DNA of 64,000 nt from Clostridiaceae bacterium (GTDB lineage Bacteria > Bacillota > Clostridia > DSM-8532), in contig JAAYFU010000031.1 of NCBI GenBank assembly GCA_012728095.1, forward strand, positions 20,821-84,820, in the 5' to 3' direction. How positions within the stretch are numbered: the stretch's first letter is position 1; each line of letters begins with the position of its first letter. Both the position numbers and the translations under genes were made by a program. A model generated the notes under the pieces. It saw only the letters and a program-made list of their open reading frames with translations. It was not told where the DNA came from and made no database searches. This document shows, one piece after another, positions 6,586 to 16,903 of the stretch.

Positions 6586-7587
6586 TTACGGACGGCAGTT
6601 GGGACAGGGAAAATATCCTTCGGCGGCTGTTTCGTACGCGTTGGAAAAATAAGCTATACTGTCCCGGTTGAATCCGGGATCCGAAACAACGGTGTTTTGT
6701 AGAAATTCACAATCACTTCTGCAATAATATAAGATCCCCTGGTAAGTATAGCCGGTTAAAGGGGCTCTTCTTATGACTCTTGCTCCCCCGAGGGCATAAT
6801 GCTTATAGTTCTTGCCGGTAAGGACAGGAAAGCCCTGGGCATAAACTATGATACCCTCGTCGGTAAGAGCTCTTTTCCAGTCCGCATCATCTATTGACGG
6901 AAATTCCAGTTTAACCGAGAAGCTTTTCCCCAATGTCCATTGGTTATAATAATCCATATATGCCATGATTTTTTCTTCAACAGAGTTTTTAACTGCCGCT
7001 AAGCGTAGATTCTCAAAGGTCTGTTTATCTTTAAAGTAAGAGATTTCTTCTTCAAATTCGCTGTAATCGCCTTCTCTAAGGGTCTGGTCAGCAATATCAA
7101 AAATATAGATTTTATTCTCAAGAGTATAACGAATGATAAATCTGTCGGATAAAACTTCTCCGATATAGTGCTGCATGGGGAACCATACATGTTTAATCTC
7201 GTTTTGCCCGTTTATGTTTTTATATTCATCGAGGGCATATAATGTAAACCCTTCACTTTCAAGAAAAACCAGGACCGGTATGCAGGCATCCACCCTCGCC
7301 ATTAATGACTGATTGCCCTTCGCGTTAAAGGAATGGTATACAGTGTCAAAAAAAACTTCAGCGGCAAGCTGCTTGGCTTCTGTAAATCTTACGTTACCTG
7401 CATATGTAAGCCCCGTTCCTTTGTTTGACAGGATGAATGCGGCATCGACGGCTGCATTGTCGATTATATTGTCATAGTAATATCTTAATTTATTATCCTG
7501 TATCGCCGTTTCAGTTTCCTGGGCACTTATGAAAATGAAGGGAGAAATGATAATTACAAACATGATTGCGAAACTAGTAAGCTTCAT
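6586..7587 (-). CDS. Secreted protein at the end of the Tad-like operon
   Basis: N-terminal signal-like MKLTSFAIMFVIIISPFIFISAQE; C-terminus ends CPNCRP. Confidence 0.65.
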   Translation of the reverse strand: MKLTSFAIMFVIIISPFIFISAQETETAIQDNKLRYYYDNIIDNAAVDAAFILSNKGTGLTYAGNVRFTEAKQLAAEVFFDTVYHSFNAKGNQSLMARVDACIPVLVFLESEGFTLYALDEYKNINGQNEIKHVWFPMQHYIGEVLSDRFIIRYTLENKIYIFDIADQTLREGDYSEFEEEISYFKDKQTFENLRLAAVKNSVEEKIMAYMDYYNQWTLGKSFSVKLEFPSIDDADWKRALTDEGIIVYAQGFPVLTGKNYKHYALGGARVIRRAPLTGYTYQGILYYCRSDCEFLQNTVVSDPGFNRDSIAYFSNAYETAAEGYFPCPNCRP

Positions 7588-8128
7588 TTCTAACCATTCC
7601 TCCCGCGCGAACAAATATGGCAGGGTAATCAGTATTCCTGAACAGTATCATGTCCCGAACCGCTGTTGCCATTGTTTTACCCTTGTTTTGTACTTCGACA
7701 AAAAAAAGATCTCCCATACTCATATCATAGCGCCGGGATTTATCATGTGCCGGCAGCGTCGGATTATCCGGGTACAGGACACCCAAAATGTCATTTTCAC
7801 CATATTTTATATGGGTTATCTCATATTCGCCGGTGAAGCTTAAATTGCCGTTAATCTGTTTATATATCGGATTAACCGACCTTTTTATATGTGAAAGTCT
7901 GATTGTATAAGTGTTTCCCGTTGAGTTGACACGATTTGTGAATTCCATGTACATATCGGGTGTTATATACCCTGTGTCCCTGCAGGCATCAACGAACCTG
8001 TTACATTCTGCCAGAACGACATTGTAGGCGATATCATCCTGCCTGTCCAGGACAGTCATCAACGGAAAAAGAAACATTAATACAGCGCATAATAAAAACG
8101 CTAACACATTCCAGAAAGCTCTGTCCAT
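7574..8128 (-). CDS. Tad-like pseudopilin/minor component with N-terminal TM
   Basis: MDRAFWNVLAFLLCAVLMFLFPLMTVLDRQDDIAYNVVLAECNRFVDACRDTGYITPDMYMEF; one TM near the N-terminus, in the Tad operon. Confidence 0.6.
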   Translation of the reverse strand: MDRAFWNVLAFLLCAVLMFLFPLMTVLDRQDDIAYNVVLAECNRFVDACRDTGYITPDMYMEFTNRVNSTGNTYTIRLSHIKRSVNPIYKQINGNLSFTGEYEITHIKYGENDILGVLYPDNPTLPAHDKSRRYDMSMGDLFFVEVQNKGKTMATAVRDMILFRNTDYPAIFVRAGGMVRNEAY

Positions 8129-8141
8129 GCCTCCTCCTTTG

Positions 8142-8564
8142 CTATCGCAAGATATATTTGACTTTTATTATTCGTCCCGAATTGTCCTTATCAAACTCAA
8201 TGTCATAGAATAAAGCATGGTTTACATCCGATATTTCAACATTGGCCGCATCTCTTCCGCAAATACATATTTCTGCATTGCTCTGGTACGAGGATTCAAT
8301 TGAATCGGAATACAACCTGAGCACTTCACTGTTTTTCACAAGTCTTTTGGCTTCCAGAAGCTGATGTATTACCTCTGTCCCTTTTATTGGATATTCTCCT
8401 TTTCCTCCGGTTACGGCAACCATCCTGTCATCGTTAATAAGCGCACTGCTTTGGGCAATATAATCCCGGTAATTGTTATAATCAGAAAAGTAAAACGTTA
8501 AAGCCAATCCAAGCAGAACGACTGCCAGATCCAGGTATAATACTCTTTCAATATTACCGCTCAT
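8142..8564 (-). CDS. Small membrane-anchored protein of the Tad-like operon
   Basis: N-terminal TM (VLYLDLAVVLLGLALTFYF) and extracytoplasmic-type remainder; operonic position. Confidence 0.6.
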   Translation of the reverse strand: MSGNIERVLYLDLAVVLLGLALTFYFSDYNNYRDYIAQSSALINDDRMVAVTGGKGEYPIKGTEVIHQLLEAKRLVKNSEVLRLYSDSIESSYQSNAEICICGRDAANVEISDVNHALFYDIEFDKDNSGRIIKVKYILR

Positions 8565-8566
8565 AA

Positions 8567-9145
8567 TCAGTCCTTCTGTGCAAAAATCACGCCACGAATT
8601 TTTAAGTTTGTATCGTATATCAAGTGGGATATAAACTTTCCGGAGGGATTGATATACCTGGATGTAAGGTTGGGATTCTCACAGTCTCTTCTTTCTGCGT
8701 CCATAACAGTTTTGCTGACACTGGTTAGAAGTTCTCCGCTGTTTACCGACAGTATTACGCACCGGTTGTCAATCCGCAGCGTGCCGTTCGTTTTTGATAT
8801 GTACTGGTTATAGTCTGAGATGTTCAGGCCTGTTCCGGCGGAAAGGTCCAGGTTTACAGGATTCCCGCCATTGGATCCCAGGGTTGCCACAAGGATGATA
8901 ACTTCGCCGCTTCTGCCTGAAAAAGTTCCCAGGGCTGACAATACATCATCACCCTTTACTTCCTTTCCGTCATATATTCTGAATTCTTCTTCCGCCATGC
9001 TTTGGGATATTGACCCTATACGGTCATTGGCCAAACTGCTTACTTCTTTCATTCCGCCGAAAATACTCAGCCCTATGGTAACGACTGCAATAAAGAGAAG
9101 AATTGAAACTCCCATCCAAAGCGCTTTAGATAAATTACCTTCCAT
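8567..9145 (-). CDS. Small membrane-anchored protein of the Tad-like operon
   Basis: N-terminal TM (ALWMGVSILLFIAVVTIGLSIFGG); operonic position. Confidence 0.6.
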   Translation of the reverse strand: MEGNLSKALWMGVSILLFIAVVTIGLSIFGGMKEVSSLANDRIGSISQSMAEEEFRIYDGKEVKGDDVLSALGTFSGRSGEVIILVATLGSNGGNPVNLDLSAGTGLNISDYNQYISKTNGTLRIDNRCVILSVNSGELLTSVSKTVMDAERRDCENPNLTSRYINPSGKFISHLIYDTNLKIRGVIFAQKD

Positions 9146-9169
9146 AGCCTTGCCTCCCGTAAATTTTAT

Positions 9170-11203
9170 TTATATTTGCATTATTTGTTTATAAAATGCC
9201 GCAATACTGTTCATTCCGGACACAATCATCGGTATTATCAGGTAAAGAATAATCATCATATATACCGGCAAAAAACCTATCATATTACCCAGGTTTTTCT
9301 TTCTCTCGACTATTCTTTCATTGGTATCTTTTCGGGTTTCGCGATTGAAATTCATTTCGTTTTCCAACTCTTCGAAGGCCTTTGCCACTTCCAAGTCCGA
9401 GCTGGCCAGCTGAAGGTTGTCTATTATAGCCAGTAAAGGCGGAAAACCAACCTCGGCTTTAAGTTCTTCCAACGCTTCATAAGGTCCGGAACTGAAGTTC
9501 AGTATGCATTTTTGCAAGGGTTCTTTAAAATGAACCGAGAAAGCCTCCATCCATTCCAGGATCTCATGAACGTGAACCCTGTTCATATGCATCAGCATAA
9601 GAATAATTGTTTGGAACTGTGTAACTTCATCTTCCATATCAATCCTTCTTGCCTTTGCCATAATAGCAAGGCTGATGACAGGAACCCAATATCCCGCGAT
9701 AAAAAGTAAGATACATACAATTAGCTGCCACCACCAGAATATATTGCGGGAGAGCGTATGGATCTTTTTATTAATTCTTTCATGGGCAGCTGTCAGTTCC
9801 TGTTTGGTTAATTGCCCGTCTTCAATCAGTCTTTCAAGTACCTGGTTCTCGTCCGGGTTTTTACCCAGGCTTAAAATAATCTTCCTGTCAAAATCTGCGA
9901 TATTTTTAAGCCTTTCATATTCCTGGTCCGATAGTTTTCCACCCAGAAAACCGTCAGGCATCTGTGGCAAATACAGGACAGAATACCTTGTGTATGCGTT
10001 TAACCCTAAAAACATGCAAATGCCGGAAATAAACGCGATAAGCCCGATAAGAAGCCTGCGGACATACAGGGTGTATATGTTCAAAGGCGCCATAGCGCTT
10101 TTTATAAGCTCCGTCAAATACTGCCGCTTTTTTGAGTACTGCCGGGGCACCAGTCGGTCCACGACCGGATGAAGCAGTTTTTCATATATCCGTTCTTCAA
10201 ATGATTTTTTAACATATCCGATATTGATATGATCATCAAAACGCTGAAGTTTTCTTAAAATCATATAGCAGACAACTGAAGAAAAAACGACTCCAATACC
10301 CAGGACAATGCCCAACCTGCTGGAATAGAATGATTCCAGAGGCGCGAAGCTGCCTGCCGCCCAGTTTCTCAGGGGTTTTAAGAAAAACAAAGGAAGAAGG
10401 GATATTGTGGTAAGGCTTTTCAAAGCGTACTTTAGCTTTTCCCGCTTGTATAATTCAGCCTTGATTTCGCTGCCCAGATATGCTATGCACCGTACAAAGA
10501 CCGAACTTCCATTGACAACCGTGTCTCCGTATTCCTTGGTAATGAAAACTATACCTGCAAGCATTTTAAAATATTTATTGGGAGCCGTTTCATAATACTT
10601 TTCCAGTTCCGCTTCCACATCCTTGGAAAAAAGAATGTCATTAATCCGCTCGGCCTGGGTATAAACTTCGAAAGTCCCTTTCCGGTTCAGAAGTTCACAA
10701 GCTTCCAGGTTTGCGTCCTCGACCGATTTATGCTCATAATATTTATGTCTGAGAAATTCCAGATATTTAATCTGCTGTTTAAGAAGTCTGTCCTGAAGAT
10801 TGCTTATGTACAAATCTATAATTGTGTCCGCGATAAAAGACAAAAGTATCGCAAATAATATCATGATCAAAAAGTCGCGGGTAAGTATCCAGAAAATGAT
10901 AACAACAGAAACATACGCCGCCGCTGAAAACAAAAGAAGGATAACAGCAGTTTTTCTGATATTTCTTTCATCAGAGACAGTATAGATTTCAAGTCTTTTC
11001 CTGATATTCAGCAGAAGCTTTTTTAATACGGGAATTCTGCTGAATCTGCGGTACAGTAAAATATAAAATGTCGGATATTTTTCCCCTATTTGTCTTAAGT
11101 TTTTATCCAGTTTATTCCGCTTCTTTGCATAAACCAGGTTTGCCATTATCAATAAGAACGCGAGAAAGAAACAGAAAACTCCGATTATGCCATATGTATT
11201 CAA
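9170..11203 (-). CDS. TadB/TadC-like membrane protein (apparent two-module GspF-type protein)
   Basis: 677 aa with two sets of TM segments around cytoplasmic helical regions; C-terminal module resembles TadC (MLMHMNRVHVHEILEWM...NIQL/NERIVERKKNLGNMIGFLPVYMMIILYLIIP). 4-bp overlap with the ATPase gene. Confidence 0.7.
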   Translation of the reverse strand: MNTYGIIGVFCFFLAFLLIMANLVYAKKRNKLDKNLRQIGEKYPTFYILLYRRFSRIPVLKKLLLNIRKRLEIYTVSDERNIRKTAVILLLFSAAAYVSVVIIFWILTRDFLIMILFAILLSFIADTIIDLYISNLQDRLLKQQIKYLEFLRHKYYEHKSVEDANLEACELLNRKGTFEVYTQAERINDILFSKDVEAELEKYYETAPNKYFKMLAGIVFITKEYGDTVVNGSSVFVRCIAYLGSEIKAELYKREKLKYALKSLTTISLLPLFFLKPLRNWAAGSFAPLESFYSSRLGIVLGIGVVFSSVVCYMILRKLQRFDDHINIGYVKKSFEERIYEKLLHPVVDRLVPRQYSKKRQYLTELIKSAMAPLNIYTLYVRRLLIGLIAFISGICMFLGLNAYTRYSVLYLPQMPDGFLGGKLSDQEYERLKNIADFDRKIILSLGKNPDENQVLERLIEDGQLTKQELTAAHERINKKIHTLSRNIFWWWQLIVCILLFIAGYWVPVISLAIMAKARRIDMEDEVTQFQTIILMLMHMNRVHVHEILEWMEAFSVHFKEPLQKCILNFSSGPYEALEELKAEVGFPPLLAIIDNLQLASSDLEVAKAFEELENEMNFNRETRKDTNERIVERKKNLGNMIGFLPVYMMIILYLIIPMIVSGMNSIAAFYKQIMQI

Positions 11204-13074
11204 ACTCTCACCCCGCTTTCCAGGTTGAAATGCAAGTTTAGGAAATCGTCGAATTGCCGTGCATCTTCGGCTGTCATGGCGCGTTTCATCCTCTCTGTCC
11301 TTTCTTTTGAAACAGGGTTGACCACAACATACCGGCCATTTCTGAATTCAATAATATTGCGGCACTCAAATATCCTTTTATCGGTCATCTTCTTATAATA
11401 CTCAGCGGTTGTTTCCATGAAAGAAGCTGTTTTATCAGTTATATTCTTTTCATAAACAAAATTGTCAGGCAGTGGCGTATCCTTTAGTTCAACTATTTCT
11501 GTGATTCGTTCAATATATCTTTTGCCTTCGTAATCTCTTGCAAGATGTATGTCAAAATCAAGGACCGAAACCACCTGCTGTTCGGCTATTTTTTCATTTG
11601 TGAACATTTCGCATTTCAATAATGAATTCCGGAGAGAATAAACCAGATCCCGCGTAGTTTTTGCATGATGGGTAAAAAGAGTAAACAGCGAAGCCACCTG
11701 GGCCATCTGTATCATCCATGCCGCTACCGGATCGGTTGCCACTTCTCCCAGTATGTTCACGCTGCCGTCTGTCTTTTTCTGAATATCAAGTCCCATTTGC
11801 CCCGAAATAGTTTCAGTCTCTCTGAAGGACAGGATATTTCTTCTAGGGTATAAACGTCTTAGATTCAGTTCAAAAGCCATTTCCTGGATACGAAGTGTTA
11901 AGGTGGCATAAATATGTTCAATCATGGCCATAAGCATTGTGGTTTTCCCGCTTCCCTGCTGCCCGGTCACGGCTGTTATCATCCCGCCCTTTACTATGTA
12001 TTTGATCAGGTTTATGGGCAAATTGGCATTCTCATCCTGAATAAGCATTTCCAACGTTACATTTTTAATGTAAAATTTGCGGACAAAAAAAGCCCAGGAT
12101 TCAGAAAACGGCGGCCGTACCACAAGGACACGGCTTCCGTCCTTCATCTCGTTTACCCTGTAGCCTGTAGCCTCTGAAAGCTGGCCTCCCCGATTGTAAC
12201 GGTATATTATCTGGCATACCCTTTTTAGCTCGCTTTCACTTTCAAAGCTTAAAAAATCAAGTTTTATGGATTTGCCTTTATAGAAAATCCATACGCTTTC
12301 ATAGTTTTTCTGGTAACTTGCGGCAATATCCATTTGCTGCCGGAAGTTCGAAAAATCAAAATGGTCCGTGGTTACCCCGGAAACTCCGGCAGATACGCCG
12401 TCAATATTCATATCCCTGATTTCATCTATGACGCCTAACCCTTTATATTGTTCATACACCGCCTGGGTGATAACCTCGAGTTTGTCTTCCTTCGTGAGGA
12501 TAAAACCCATCCTGTCATAAATATGCTCAATCTCCTGCCTGGATATAAAATAACAATATTCTCCATCCTCGTTCTTTTTCAGTTTATCCAGCTCAAACTC
12601 ATCAATTATATACGAAAGCGCATCGGCTCCATGTTTCTTCTTCATCATGTGAAGTAGAATTGCAAACTTATGCTTTGTTGACAGAAGGTATGGATTATTG
12701 AAAGGAATGATTAAATTGAGCTTTTCATCAGGGATATAGGCATGAAGAATATCATAAATTAAAGCCTTGACAAACTGTTTATCCACAATGGAGCCGTGCA
12801 TACATACCTTGAGCGCTTTTTTAAGTTCCGCCCTTTTATTGGCTTGCTTTTTAAACTCCACCTCGTTGAGGCCAAGCTCAAATAAATTAGTTCTTGTTAT
12901 CTCGTTAATGCAATCCCTGACATATTCGATAAGTCCCGGAATTGTGTACTTCTGGGGATCTTCATTTTCGCCTGTCTCCATATGGTACTTTCTTGATACA
13001 AAGAAAAAGTACAGGGATATACCCAGGCCAAGCAGTATTAAAATGAGCATTACCAGGTTTATGGCAAACGGCAA
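11200..13074 (-). CDS. TadA/CpaF-like secretion ATPase with N-terminal TM
   Basis: Walker A TGQQGSGKTTMLMAMIEHI, followed by NILGEVATDPVAAWMIQMAQVASLFTLFTHHAKTTRDLVYSLRNSLL typical of the GspE/TadA family. Confidence 0.85.
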   Translation of the reverse strand: MPFAINLVMLILILLGLGISLYFFFVSRKYHMETGENEDPQKYTIPGLIEYVRDCINEITRTNLFELGLNEVEFKKQANKRAELKKALKVCMHGSIVDKQFVKALIYDILHAYIPDEKLNLIIPFNNPYLLSTKHKFAILLHMMKKKHGADALSYIIDEFELDKLKKNEDGEYCYFISRQEIEHIYDRMGFILTKEDKLEVITQAVYEQYKGLGVIDEIRDMNIDGVSAGVSGVTTDHFDFSNFRQQMDIAASYQKNYESVWIFYKGKSIKLDFLSFESESELKRVCQIIYRYNRGGQLSEATGYRVNEMKDGSRVLVVRPPFSESWAFFVRKFYIKNVTLEMLIQDENANLPINLIKYIVKGGMITAVTGQQGSGKTTMLMAMIEHIYATLTLRIQEMAFELNLRRLYPRRNILSFRETETISGQMGLDIQKKTDGSVNILGEVATDPVAAWMIQMAQVASLFTLFTHHAKTTRDLVYSLRNSLLKCEMFTNEKIAEQQVVSVLDFDIHLARDYEGKRYIERITEIVELKDTPLPDNFVYEKNITDKTASFMETTAEYYKKMTDKRIFECRNIIEFRNGRYVVVNPVSKERTERMKRAMTAEDARQFDDFLNLHFNLESGVRV

Positions 13075-13874
13075 CTTTTATCGCACCCCTCAACAATGTA
13101 CTCACAGAGCCGGTTCAAAGCGCTGAATATCTCTTTTTCTTCGCCGCGTTTTGTATTTCGGTTAAATGCGACATATTCATATACTCTTCCGGTGTTCAAA
13201 GCATCCAATAAATGTGAACTATTGGGAATTTCAAAAACGTAATTTCTCTTTATTCCAAATTTTCTTGCAAGGTTGGCTCCCGTTATGCCACTGTTCTTTT
13301 CATATCGCGCCAAAACAAATGCAGCCTGTTTTTGCCCTAAAAACTCATACTCATTAAAAAGGGCGGCCAGGTCATCCAGTAATAAACTGTTCTGATTTAC
13401 ACAAAACACTATTATGTCCGAATTTTTAAGAAGACTTAAACTGTTGTTTACTTTAATACCGCTGTGAACATCCAGTATTATAAGGTCATAAAACTCTTTC
13501 GCCAGGCCGAGTACGCTTAAGAAAAGCTCCTGGTCTTCCTGCGGCATTATTTGCTTTTTCTCGGATCCCAAAAGCAAGTCCATCCTGTGATTTTTCAGGA
13601 CCGAATATGTATAATCCGCAATCATTTCCGGCTTAAGTCTTCCGTTTTTCACGAGTCTTAACAGCGCATCGATTCCCTGGTTATTCAGTCTTCCGAAACT
13701 GTTACTCTGTTTTGGCTTTTTAAACAAATAACCTTCTATAGCGTTTTTTTCTGTTTGGTTATGAGCAATCAACGTTTTTAAAGCCGTATTCTGTGCTATG
13801 AATGAGGCCACTGCTGCCGTGGTAGTGCTTGTCGCTCCCTGTCCGTGCATGTTTGACCAGAAGGAAACCTGCAT
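13059..13874 (-). CDS. CpaE/MinD-like protein with non-canonical P-loop
   Basis: MQVSFWSNMHGQGATSTTTAAVASFIAQNT at the P-loop position; DLIILDVHSGIKVNNSLSLLKNSDIIVFCVNQN matches MinD-type downstream motifs. Confidence 0.75.
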   Translation of the reverse strand: MQVSFWSNMHGQGATSTTTAAVASFIAQNTALKTLIAHNQTEKNAIEGYLFKKPKQSNSFGRLNNQGIDALLRLVKNGRLKPEMIADYTYSVLKNHRMDLLLGSEKKQIMPQEDQELFLSVLGLAKEFYDLIILDVHSGIKVNNSLSLLKNSDIIVFCVNQNSLLLDDLAALFNEYEFLGQKQAAFVLARYEKNSGITGANLARKFGIKRNYVFEIPNSSHLLDALNTGRVYEYVAFNRNTKRGEEKEIFSALNRLCEYIVEGCDKSCRLP

Positions 13875-13875
13875 C

Positions 13876-14523
13876 CTATTTCATCCTTTCAGCTCTTCTT
13901 AACACTTCTTTTGCCGCTTTTGAATCCAAAGAAAAAATATATTGGATTGTTTTTCTGAGGGAATTTTTGATAGGCAAAGACAGATTCCTTACAACTAATT
14001 TGTTTGAATACTGACTTTCAATCATCACAATACGGTTTTTTTCCTCAAAGTATATTTCATCGGTTCCGGCAATCCTGGTGAAGCTTGGTAAACTATGCTC
14101 CCAGTAGCTGTTTAAAAAATGACTTCCTATTTTGCAGTACTCCATAATATTAAGATAGATAATATAGATATTTAATGACGGGTGCGCCCAGGTGTATTCT
14201 TCGGCTAATTTTATACAGCTTTCAAGCTTGCCCCTGGTTGTTTCGCTAATTGCTATTACCTTAAAATCCTCCGGAATATCCATATATTCTTCCGCATCAA
14301 TAAAATTGCCGTTATTTTCCGAAATCTTTGACAAAGGGTTTTCCCCGTCTTTAAGCAGCACAAAATCAATCCCGCAATATTCATAACTATCGGCGACTTC
14401 ATCAAATGAATATGCCTTTTTTGACAATACGGTTATTTTTGCGTGGCATGACACTATTTTAGCAAGGCATAGTATTAAAAAACGCTTTTCCTCGGTACTC
14501 TCTCCCAGAAACACTACATTCAT
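13876..14523 (-). CDS. Unknown protein, possibly degenerate MinD-like
   Basis: MNVVFLGESTEEKRFLILCLAKIVSCHAKITVLSKKAYSFDE has P-loop NTPase-like strand/helix spacing without a Walker A. Between cpaB-like and cpaE-like genes. Confidence 0.5.
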   Translation of the reverse strand: MNVVFLGESTEEKRFLILCLAKIVSCHAKITVLSKKAYSFDEVADSYEYCGIDFVLLKDGENPLSKISENNGNFIDAEEYMDIPEDFKVIAISETTRGKLESCIKLAEEYTWAHPSLNIYIIYLNIMEYCKIGSHFLNSYWEHSLPSFTRIAGTDEIYFEEKNRIVMIESQYSNKLVVRNLSLPIKNSLRKTIQYIFSLDSKAAKEVLRRAERMK

Positions 14524-14534
14524 ATGAAGCCCTC

Positions 14535-15488
14535 CTAAAGATTATCTTCCACACTCGTTTCGGTTCCCGATTCAAAGGTTTTGCTTTCGGGAATATCATG
14601 GAGAATTTGAACATTATTATCATTGAACACTTTGTTTCTCCCTGAATACTGGTGATCCTCATTTATTCTTTCCTCAAACAGCCGGCGGTTACGGGTCTCC
14701 AGCTCTGTAACGGCTTTATTGATAATATTGGGATTTTCCAGGATCAATTTTTGAACGTCTAAATTCACCGGATAAGTTATAGCCGCCTGATCCTGGATAT
14801 CCGGAGCTATATATGGCACGGCATATAGTATTGTTCCTTCCACGATACTTGCGTCGACAATGGCGCTGGCCATTCTCAGTATCTCTTCTTCGCCGGCATG
14901 AAACCATATTATGTTTCTTTGAGCATTTTCCGATCTTTCCAAATCGGTAACCTGCTTCTTGGAAAGGACAATATAATCCAGCCCGTTTGGAAACATGATC
15001 CTGATGTCTATGAATTCATTTTTCTGAAGTTTTTGCGGAAGGTTTAAAACCGAGTATTCCATTAGTCTCATATCATGGGGATAATCCTGTTTTCCATATA
15101 AAAGTGATTCGGTTATTACCGTATTGGACAGGATATCGCATCTTATCACCTTTCCGACAGCCAGAGAAGGATCGGTTACTGCATCTGCCGGTTTAAGACT
15201 TTCGCTTATCTCAGCCGGAGCAATGTCTTTATCCTGTAAAATATCTCCTGATTTTTTATCTGTCGTGATTTTATATACCAGACTTGTAGGATTATTCTGC
15301 CTGTATTCTTCCAATGCCAATTGCCTGATTTGCAGCTTTTCCTGTTCGGTCAACCGATATGTATTATTACGGTAATATAAATAGCCTGCTGCCAAAACTG
15401 CCAATGAAAGAGAAAGGCCTGCAATAAAACCCAGTAGAATCCTGTAACGCTGTGGCCTTGAAATCACCTTTTTACCTCCTTGTCTCAT
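14535..15488 (-). CDS. CpaB/SAF-domain-like membrane-anchored protein
   Basis: N-terminal TM (ILLGFIAGLSLSLAVLAAGYLYY); SAF-like DILQDKDIAPAEISESLKPADAVTDPSLAVGKVIRCDILSNTVITESLL. ATGA overlap with the kinase stop. Confidence 0.75.
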   Translation of the reverse strand: MRQGGKKVISRPQRYRILLGFIAGLSLSLAVLAAGYLYYRNNTYRLTEQEKLQIRQLALEEYRQNNPTSLVYKITTDKKSGDILQDKDIAPAEISESLKPADAVTDPSLAVGKVIRCDILSNTVITESLLYGKQDYPHDMRLMEYSVLNLPQKLQKNEFIDIRIMFPNGLDYIVLSKKQVTDLERSENAQRNIIWFHAGEEEILRMASAIVDASIVEGTILYAVPYIAPDIQDQAAITYPVNLDVQKLILENPNIINKAVTELETRNRRLFEERINEDHQYSGRNKVFNDNNVQILHDIPESKTFESGTETSVEDNL

Positions 15489-16903
15489 AATTGCCCTGCT
15501 AATTTGCATATTTCATTAAGCACAACCCCTATACGCTTATGATCTTCCGTATTCAGATAAAAAGGATTACTGACGGTTGAATAAAGGACCAGCCTGTTGG
15601 AGCCCAGAAGTTTTTTTAATTTTTGATGTTCATAACTTTGAGAAATATTTGCCGTATAAATCCATTCTTCTTTTGCAAGCGATTCAATTTTTTGGTGGCA
15701 TTCCGAAAAAAGGCTATACTTCCAGGGTACATTCGGACATACTATAATCCTGATATCAGCATGATTAAACTGGATCATTTTTCTTTCGGTATTCAATTGT
15801 CCGAGATCAAGGATTATCGCATCGATGCCTTTTCTGGATACCACTCCGAAATCTGGCGCATTGGGATAGAAAACCAGGTTATTCGCTTCGAACCGGTTTT
15901 CGCTTTGGAGCTTTACCTCTCCCAGCTCATCCAGATACTCTCTCATTCTGTCAAAATCCCCGCTGGAATTGAGTTCAACCAATACAGAACTGACTTTGTT
16001 ACTTGATAAGTATTTTCCTATGGCAAGGCACAGAGACGTTACACCGCTGGCAGGAAGCAAAGAGGCAATTGCTATTACTCCCTTAAAGCTTTTTTCTGCT
16101 TTTCTATTGTAAAAAAACAATCTTTCGGGAATTATCATCCTGCCAAGTTCTTCAATTGCTTCTTCGCAGTTCTGAAACCTTTTGCCGGGATCGGTTTGTG
16201 CAAGTTTCAGGATAAAATGAATATATCTTTGTGCAATACCCGCTTTCTTTAGTACGTCTTTCAATTTCTCAGACCCCTGTTTTACAGGATGGATTCCCGT
16301 AGCAAGATGGAAAATGGTCATCCCCAGACTGTACAAGTCTGTTCTCTGGTCAGTCTGTCCGACTCCATACTGCTCAGGGGCCGCGTAACCTTGGGTTCCT
16401 ATGTAGACTGTATCTTCTGTCTTTTCTTTGGTGTAATACCTGGCGGCTCCAAAGTCAACAAGCCTTAGTTGGCCTATGTCATCCACTATCAGATTTGCAG
16501 GTTTTAAATCTCCGTATATTATGGGAGGATTCCTGCTGTGAAGATATTTTAATACATCCAGCAGATCTCTCGTCCATTTAAGAAGCGTTTTTTCAGGTAT
16601 TTTCCCCTGGTATTCCAAAACCTTAAGTAAATTTGAGCCGGGAATGTAGTCCATTACTATGTAGTAATTATCCTCATCCTCTGTTAAATCGGCTATCCTG
16701 GGCAGCATAGGATGACTGAGATTTTTCAGTATATCTATTTCCTCCATATCAACCGAAAGGCGGGGGCTGTTTTTATACAAAACCTTAATAGCCCAGAAAT
16801 TGTTCAATACTATGTTTTCTGCCAAATATACAGCCGAAGTGCCCCCTTCGCCAAGAAAGTCAATTATTCTGTATTTGTCGGCTATTATTCTATCTTTCAT
16901 CAT
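15485..16903 (-). CDS. Ser/Thr protein kinase fused to a degenerate MinD-like domain
   Basis: Hanks motifs: GEGGTSAVY, WAIKVLY, YGDLKPANLIVDD, LVDFGAAR, GTQGYAAPEQYG. C-terminus: GVIAIASLLPASGVTSLCLAIGKYLSSNKVSSVLVELN...IDAIILDLGQL. Confidence 0.93.
   Translation of the reverse strand: MMKDRIIADKYRIIDFLGEGGTSAVYLAENIVLNNFWAIKVLYKNSPRLSVDMEEIDILKNLSHPMLPRIADLTEDEDNYYIVMDYIPGSNLLKVLEYQGKIPEKTLLKWTRDLLDVLKYLHSRNPPIIYGDLKPANLIVDDIGQLRLVDFGAARYYTKEKTEDTVYIGTQGYAAPEQYGVGQTDQRTDLYSLGMTIFHLATGIHPVKQGSEKLKDVLKKAGIAQRYIHFILKLAQTDPGKRFQNCEEAIEELGRMIIPERLFFYNRKAEKSFKGVIAIASLLPASGVTSLCLAIGKYLSSNKVSSVLVELNSSGDFDRMREYLDELGEVKLQSENRFEANNLVFYPNAPDFGVVSRKGIDAIILDLGQLNTERKMIQFNHADIRIIVCPNVPWKYSLFSECHQKIESLAKEEWIYTANISQSYEHQKLKKLLGSNRLVLYSTVSNPFYLNTEDHKRIGVVLNEICKLAGQL

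Follow-up and report, generated by a model that had tools for sequence, protein, structure and literature searches.

Processing by a prepilin peptidase is regarded as a defining step of type IV filaments. The operon described here lies in a window of 64,000 nucleotides (the whole stretch of DNA that was analysed) from a Clostridiaceae bacterium, and it encodes a Tad-like machine whose candidate subunits are not conventional prepilins.

The closest described relatives of this system are the Kil system of Myxococcus (PMC8460266, PMC12075869) and the Tad systems of monoderm bacteria (PMC6668835), both of which have processed prepilins. Monoderm Tad systems are known without a secretin (PMC6668835). 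Kil was first reported with a peptidase gene that is dispensable for killing (PMC8460266, PMC12075869). A further comparison is offered by conjugative plasmids with type IV pili, TP114 among them, where the filament genes share a plasmid with transfer genes (PMC9045228).

Compared with the Tad/Flp (type IVc) pilus, the window operon has homologues of TadA, CpaB and CpaE and a TadB/C-like protein, and its genome lacks a secretin, as do monoderm Tad systems (PMC6668835). Unlike that pilus, it has no Flp, TadE/F or TadV. Its pilin-like proteins are leaderless and carry a beta domain, its TadB-like half and a more weakly matching TadC-like half are joined in a single chain, and its ATPase belongs to a distinct clade. 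It also has three CpaE-like domains with degenerate P-loops, one of them fused to a kinase. With Kil it shares a Tad-like motor and platform and several pilin-like proteins in the place of minor pilins. However, the Kil system includes a major pilin (KilP), a secretin and minor pilins with prepilin-processing sites, and its subunits are not leaderless (PMC8460266, PMC12075869). TP114-type pili have the major pilin PilS (PMC9045228), whereas no such pilin is found in the window system. The operon is a Tad-like machine in its working, yet it falls outside the Tad pili when judged by Flp, TadE or the leader. We lean towards reading it as a Tad-derived motor whose leaderless pilin-like subunits are built into a short filament or pseudopilus.

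Organization of the operon

The operon consists of ten co-directional open reading frames on the minus strand, from 16903 to 6586. A check of the window's open reading frames recovered all ten, and each of the nine junctions is an overlap or a gap of at most 24 bases, in agreement with the tight packing reported by the first-pass annotation. The start it gave for g1, the ATG at 16903, is retained as the best one; for g10 the best start is the ATG at 7587, preceded by the ribosome-binding site GGGAGG. In both genes the longest open reading frame begins earlier. The genes and domains are as follows.

g1, 15485..16903, minus strand: Hanks-type Ser/Thr kinase domain and CpaE/MinD-like domain with a degenerate P-loop
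g1 kinase domain, about 16873-16175, minus strand: Pkinase, 1.9e-45
g1 CpaE/MinD-like domain, about 16099-15488, minus strand: CpaE profile, P=97%, E=1.1e-10
g2, 14535..15509, minus strand: SAF-domain membrane protein, CpaB/RcpC homologue; SAF, 3.2e-6; CpaB profile, P=97.6%, E=2.7e-12
g3, 13876..14523, minus strand: CpaE/MinD-like protein lacking a functional Walker A motif; CpaE profile, P=87%, E=3.9e-6
g4, 13059..13874, minus strand: CpaE/TadZ-like protein whose Walker A motif (HGQGATST) lacks the lysine; CpaE profile, P=96.7%, E=3.4e-10
g5, 11200..13074, minus strand: motor ATPase of the TadA/CpaF type, extended in its N-terminal region; TadA profile, P=99%, E=2.3e-19
g6, 9170..11203, minus strand: TadB-TadC-like platform protein, two halves in a single chain
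g7, 8567..9145, minus strand: leaderless pilin-like protein, candidate main subunit
g8, 8142..8564, minus strand: weakly conserved, leaderless and pilin-like, a paralogue of g7; g7 against g8, P=99%, E=1.9e-18
g9, 7574..8128, minus strand: leaderless protein with a single transmembrane segment, conserved across families
g10, 6586..7587, minus strand: leaderless protein with a single transmembrane segment, a large part outside the cytoplasm and, at the C-terminus, an Ada-like Cys module

Orthologues of g5 with 50-85% identity occur in nearly all of 32 relatives within the same order. The 91 loci compared keep a single order of g2 to g10, so that the neighbourhood is conserved in the Clostridia and Bacillota-wide. 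For both reasons the arrangement is not due to chance. Promoter and terminator scans of the operon gave no excess over shuffled sequence; it is the packing and the conserved order that suggest co-transcription of g1 to g10.

Searches of the ten proteins with Pfam and NCBIfam detect the kinase, the SAF domain, a weak TadA match (2e-9), a very weak AAA_31 match and nothing else. The genes are mostly annotated as hypothetical, and no description of the operon was found in the literature, mainly open-access publications. The system is under-described, as the first-pass annotation had proposed.

Motor, platform and accessory proteins

Orthologues gathered from relatives were set against Tad proteins of the same family with HHalign. 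The Tad-like character first seen by motif is borne out by these profiles: g2 corresponds to CpaB, g4 to CpaE, g5 to TadA and the N-terminal half of g6 to TadB (TadB/C profile, P=96%, E=1.9e-9). The C-terminal half of g6 matches the TadB/C profile weakly (P=42%, E=2.7e-4).

The g5 protein also matches CpaF structures (E=4.7e-13). Since its catalytic motifs GxGKTT, GEV and HHAK are invariant in 13 diverse g5 sequences, the motor looks active. In a phylogenetic tree, g5 and its relatives are split from canonical TadA with 100/100 support. A genome of another family of the order (G032, locus L038) has separate TadB- and TadC-like genes adjoining a canonical Tad locus; its g5 forms a long branch whose position in the tree is unsure.

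Upstream of the motor genes, g2 is a candidate alignment-ring protein. The third gene had been listed as of unknown function, a label that can be replaced: g3 adds a third CpaE/MinD-like protein to the set, its P-loop degenerate, and is related by HHalign to the C-terminal domain of g1 (E=7.6e-9). The Walker A lysine is largely lost from the CpaE-like proteins of the system, and one g3 relative (L093) retains an intact P-loop, GTSGVGKT.

A probable kinase in place of a receiver

The operon was initially described as headed by a signalling kinase. A kinase is indeed present in g1, with its catalytic motifs, and the arginine that forms the RD pair in g1 relatives is a glycine in the window protein. 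However, the kinase is fused to a CpaE-like domain of about 200 C-terminal residues, and g1-type proteins occur in only 26 of the 91 loci, about a third.

An explanation for this fusion is suggested by plasmid copies of the operon. The first gene of ten plasmid loci encodes the same CpaE-like C-terminal domain as g1. Where the N-terminus of these proteins could be examined, it matched RcsB receivers over the full length (E=0.007) among solved structures; for a second subgroup the same comparison returned nothing decisive. A canonical CpaE of this genome consists of a receiver and a MinD-like domain. Because the plasmid copies join a receiver-like domain to the same CpaE-like domain, on the simplest reading g1 looks like a TadZ/CpaE in which the receiver has been replaced by a Hanks-type kinase. 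Like TadZ/CpaE it is laid out as an input domain followed by a CpaE-like domain, but the input domain of the window protein is a Ser/Thr kinase. This does not fit a stand-alone signaller, and the kinase is optional within the system, not its hallmark.

Candidate subunits without a leader

Each of g7 to g10 opens with a membrane helix. Of the three small proteins listed earlier with single transmembrane segments, two, g7 and g8, can now be described as leaderless paralogues that are pilin-like in architecture. An AlphaFold2 model of g7 (pLDDT 82.8) consists of a helix of 57 residues (2-58), with low confidence at residues 30-50, followed by a beta-rich domain. Broadly, this modelled arrangement is that of a type IV pilin or pseudopilin. 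The model of g10 (pLDDT 82.7) has a helix at residues 2-57 and an alpha/beta domain. Foldseek comparison of the g7 and g10 models with solved structures, pilins included, gave no significant match; the g10 hit to 1u8b has a probability of 0.99 but E=0.24. Residues 286-332 of g10 give a sub-threshold Ada-type match (E=0.02). HHalign found no significant match of g7 to g10 to Flp, TadE or TadG profiles.

The absence of a leader was examined in 407 homologues of g7 to g10. A basic residue (K/R) followed by [GA]xxxxE, the prepilin signature, occurs in none of them but in 9 of 9 Flp/TadE controls, and for this reason g7 to g10 are, by their sequences, not conventional prepilins. The bare [GA]xxxxE pattern occurs once in the 407. 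The hydrophobic segment begins 0-11 residues after the chosen start. Most of these starts have a site resembling a ribosome-binding site close upstream (185 of 187 for g7, by a loose criterion of four bases); the ATG of g7 itself follows GGGAGG.

Within the locus, g7 and g9 are strongly conserved. Some Clostridia carry three to six g7-like copies per locus, with shared N-termini such as MENASKALIMAAGVLIA. Among the relatives of g9 are proteins as long as 1262 amino acids (L096, L097, L098), in which the g9-like region is the N-terminal domain. These long forms suggest surface exposure and, together with the varied lengths of g10, fit a surface-exposed tip or adhesin.

The main rival to a filament is a secretion device like the type II system, in which g7 to g10 would make up a static complex, or a pseudopilus anchored in the membrane, for protein export, and no surface pilus would ever be made. 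The presence of several pilin-like proteins with beta domains and of no dominant small pilin would suit such a device, as would the secreted S-layer or stalk-domain proteins and DUF5704 proteins that follow the operon on plasmids. No conserved gene for a secreted substrate lies beside the window operon or those of close relatives, however, and the large size and membrane anchors of several g9 and g10 homologues agree better with surface display. We consider this explanation unlikely, while giving it more weight than the other alternatives discussed below.

Flp and the prepilin peptidase elsewhere in the genome

Neither Flp, TadE nor a prepilin peptidase is encoded within g1 to g10, in line with the initial report of a locus without Flp or TadV. 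It had been reasoned that a Flp pilin and a peptidase elsewhere, with one-to-one homology to a characterised Tad system, would make the operon ordinary. Both exist in the genome. Contig C70 holds two Tad loci: one is canonical, with a Flp pilin (1e-10) and TadE (1e-15), and the other has TadE, DUF5702 and DUF6382 proteins. The single A24 prepilin peptidase is isolated on contig C65. The one Flp belongs to the C70 locus, which has its own TadA, TadB, TadC, CpaB and CpaE, and no one-to-one homology to a characterised system was found. By sequence, the window operon represents a further Tad-related lineage, the third in this genome and deeply separate. No secretin (PF00263) was detected in the genome, as expected in a monoderm.

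The operon might thus be an ordinary Tad pilus that borrows the Flp of C70 and the peptidase of C65. The occurrence of both in the genome favours such borrowing, but the Flp locus has those Tad components of its own, and g7 and g9 are strongly conserved within the window-type locus. Moreover, relatives retain the operon where no Flp was detected (G026, a single contig, and G369, G028 and G147), so that the system does not appear to borrow Flp in general. Borrowing is very improbable.

An A24 peptidase occurs in most genomes with the system, and its presence cannot show that it is needed, since other type IV systems coexist with it in most of the genomes checked. One genome (G347) is an exception in having a TadV-like gene beside its operon. 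The PF01478 profile found no match in 6 of 37 genomes; a protein query then recovered A24 fragments or a homologue in two of these (G010, G147). No A24 peptidase was found in the drafts G028, G029, G030 and G025 after both searches, which is suggestive of independence. Absence was rejected as proof, given the two recoveries, the draft state of the remaining genomes and the other T2SSE-family motors in three of them (G029, G030, G025). As the subunits have no prepilin leader, A24 processing is probably not needed.

Distribution and plasmid copies

Within the class, a profile of g9 has hits in 35 of 391 genomes, spread over six families. When g5 was searched against 84,980 species genomes, at least 556 relatives were obtained; among the best 80 are Paenibacillus, Cohnella, Tumebacillus, Thermoclostridium caenicola and many Clostridia metagenome-assembled genomes. 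Thermoclostridium belongs to the same family as the window, and T. caenicola shares the same g5 with another genome (G027). A phylum-wide count gave at least 5 of 399 genomes, a low estimate because three candidates were scored per genome.

The same operon is found on large plasmids of Paenibacillus, Thermobacillus, Cohnella, Lysinibacillus, Alkalihalophilus, Sporosarcina and Butyrivibrio. There, too, its genes mostly bear the label "hypothetical protein", and "ABC transporter permease" is an occasional name for g7.

Complete copies on plasmids raise the question of an apparatus for DNA transfer or uptake, serving mating on plasmids and DNA handling in the chromosomal copy. Genes for a VirD4/TraG-like coupling protein and for replication-relaxation proteins lie close to several plasmid copies, and in Paenibacillus validus a relaxase lies downstream, which suggests a mating role in those settings. 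A replacement conjugation pore was ruled out, as a VirB4-type ATPase is also carried by at least 4 of the 14 plasmids with the system. Among g1 to g10 there is neither a VirB4-type ATPase nor a coupling protein. The window copy occupies a conserved chromosomal site adjoining hisI/hisE-like genes, and no transfer genes are seen in its vicinity. A DNA apparatus is accordingly improbable; on plasmids the role is perhaps cell-cell adhesion, by analogy with the type IV pilus of TP114 (PMC9045228).

Proposed mechanism

The favoured reading remains a Tad-derived motor that builds a short filament or pseudopilus. It draws on the homologies of g2, g4, g5 and g6, the intact motor motifs, the separate g5 clade, the conserved gene order, the paralogy of g7 and g8, the extra g7-like copies, the g7 model, the missing leaders, the long forms of g9 and the carriers in which no Flp was detected. 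The homologies, order, motifs, missing leaders and degenerate P-loops were computed directly.

In this mechanism, a g5 hexamer would burn ATP beneath the g6 platform and so drive subunits out of the membrane, into which they would have been inserted without a prepilin leader. The pilin-like g7 and g8 would assemble into a short filament or pseudopilus that crosses the Gram-positive wall and is aligned by a ring of g2. Probably g9 and g10 prime or cap it as minor or capping subunits. The CpaE-like g4, g3 and C-terminal half of g1 may recruit or position the motor, and the kinase half of g1 may couple assembly to a signal. The part of Glu5 in mature pilins is perhaps taken by an acidic residue at position 2 or 3. 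The assembled structure would serve for surface attachment or for secretion of a substrate.

Several points count against this mechanism. A long N-terminal helix does not by itself prove a pilin, and neither solved pilins nor Flp, TadE or TadG were matched. The uncertain stretch of the g7 helix, the A24 peptidase in most carriers and the TadV-like gene of G347 also weigh on that side.

A stronger form of the proposal is a type IV filament without prepilin processing, with leaderless pilins that enter the membrane directly and are polymerised by the motor, an acidic residue for Glu5 and, in some lineages, a kinase-TadZ switch. Such a system would form its own branch of the superfamily, on Bacillota chromosomes and plasmids. 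This form is put forward tentatively, as possible more than probable.

Significance

If the reading is correct, a widespread lineage of Tad motors has leaderless subunits, which would mean that prepilin processing can be lost. Such a lineage would be a direct test of the leader's purpose. The "hypothetical" and misnamed genes of many Paenibacillus, Cohnella, Clostridia and large plasmids would become one recognisable system, and g1 would offer a natural swap of a kinase for a receiver in a motor-positioning protein.

Neighbourhoods of the operon

Besides the Tad-derived operon (g1-g10), the source genome carries two Tad loci on contig C70 (L032, 362-6325; L033, 3-10462). One of these is canonical and includes a Flp pilin, and the other encodes TadE together with DUF5702 and DUF6382 proteins. 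In several relatives (L034/L035, L036, and L037), the operon and the second Tad locus lie a few kilobases apart, flanking the rpsB-tsf-pyrH-frr cluster. Among the loci seen, a peptidase occurs at the operon in a single case, that of genome G347, where the stretch immediately downstream of g10 encodes a TadV-like peptidase along with a DUF6382-like protein (L093, 7023-9049).

The operon is also found on plasmids. Many of these carry S-layer or stalk-domain proteins and DUF5704 proteins after it, and at five plasmid loci (L212, L213, L218, L219, and L222) VirD4/TraG-like coupling and replication-relaxation proteins are encoded nearby.

Ends of g9 and g10

Both genes encode leaderless single-TM proteins.

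Window 7574-7610: conserved g9 end GGMVRNE, overlapping both the start of g10 and its ribosome-binding site
Window 6586-6730: Ada-like four-cysteine module at the extracytoplasmic C-terminus of g10 (sub-threshold sequence match, E=0.005-0.02)
L096, 10775-14563: 1262-residue protein with a g9-type N-terminus

Because of the overlap with g10, constraint on the DNA may partly explain the conservation of GGMVRNE. Since most relatives elsewhere have fewer cysteines in the Ada-like module, it may alternate between a zinc site and a disulfide. The 1262-residue L096 protein contains no Pfam domain and is a possible giant tip adhesin.
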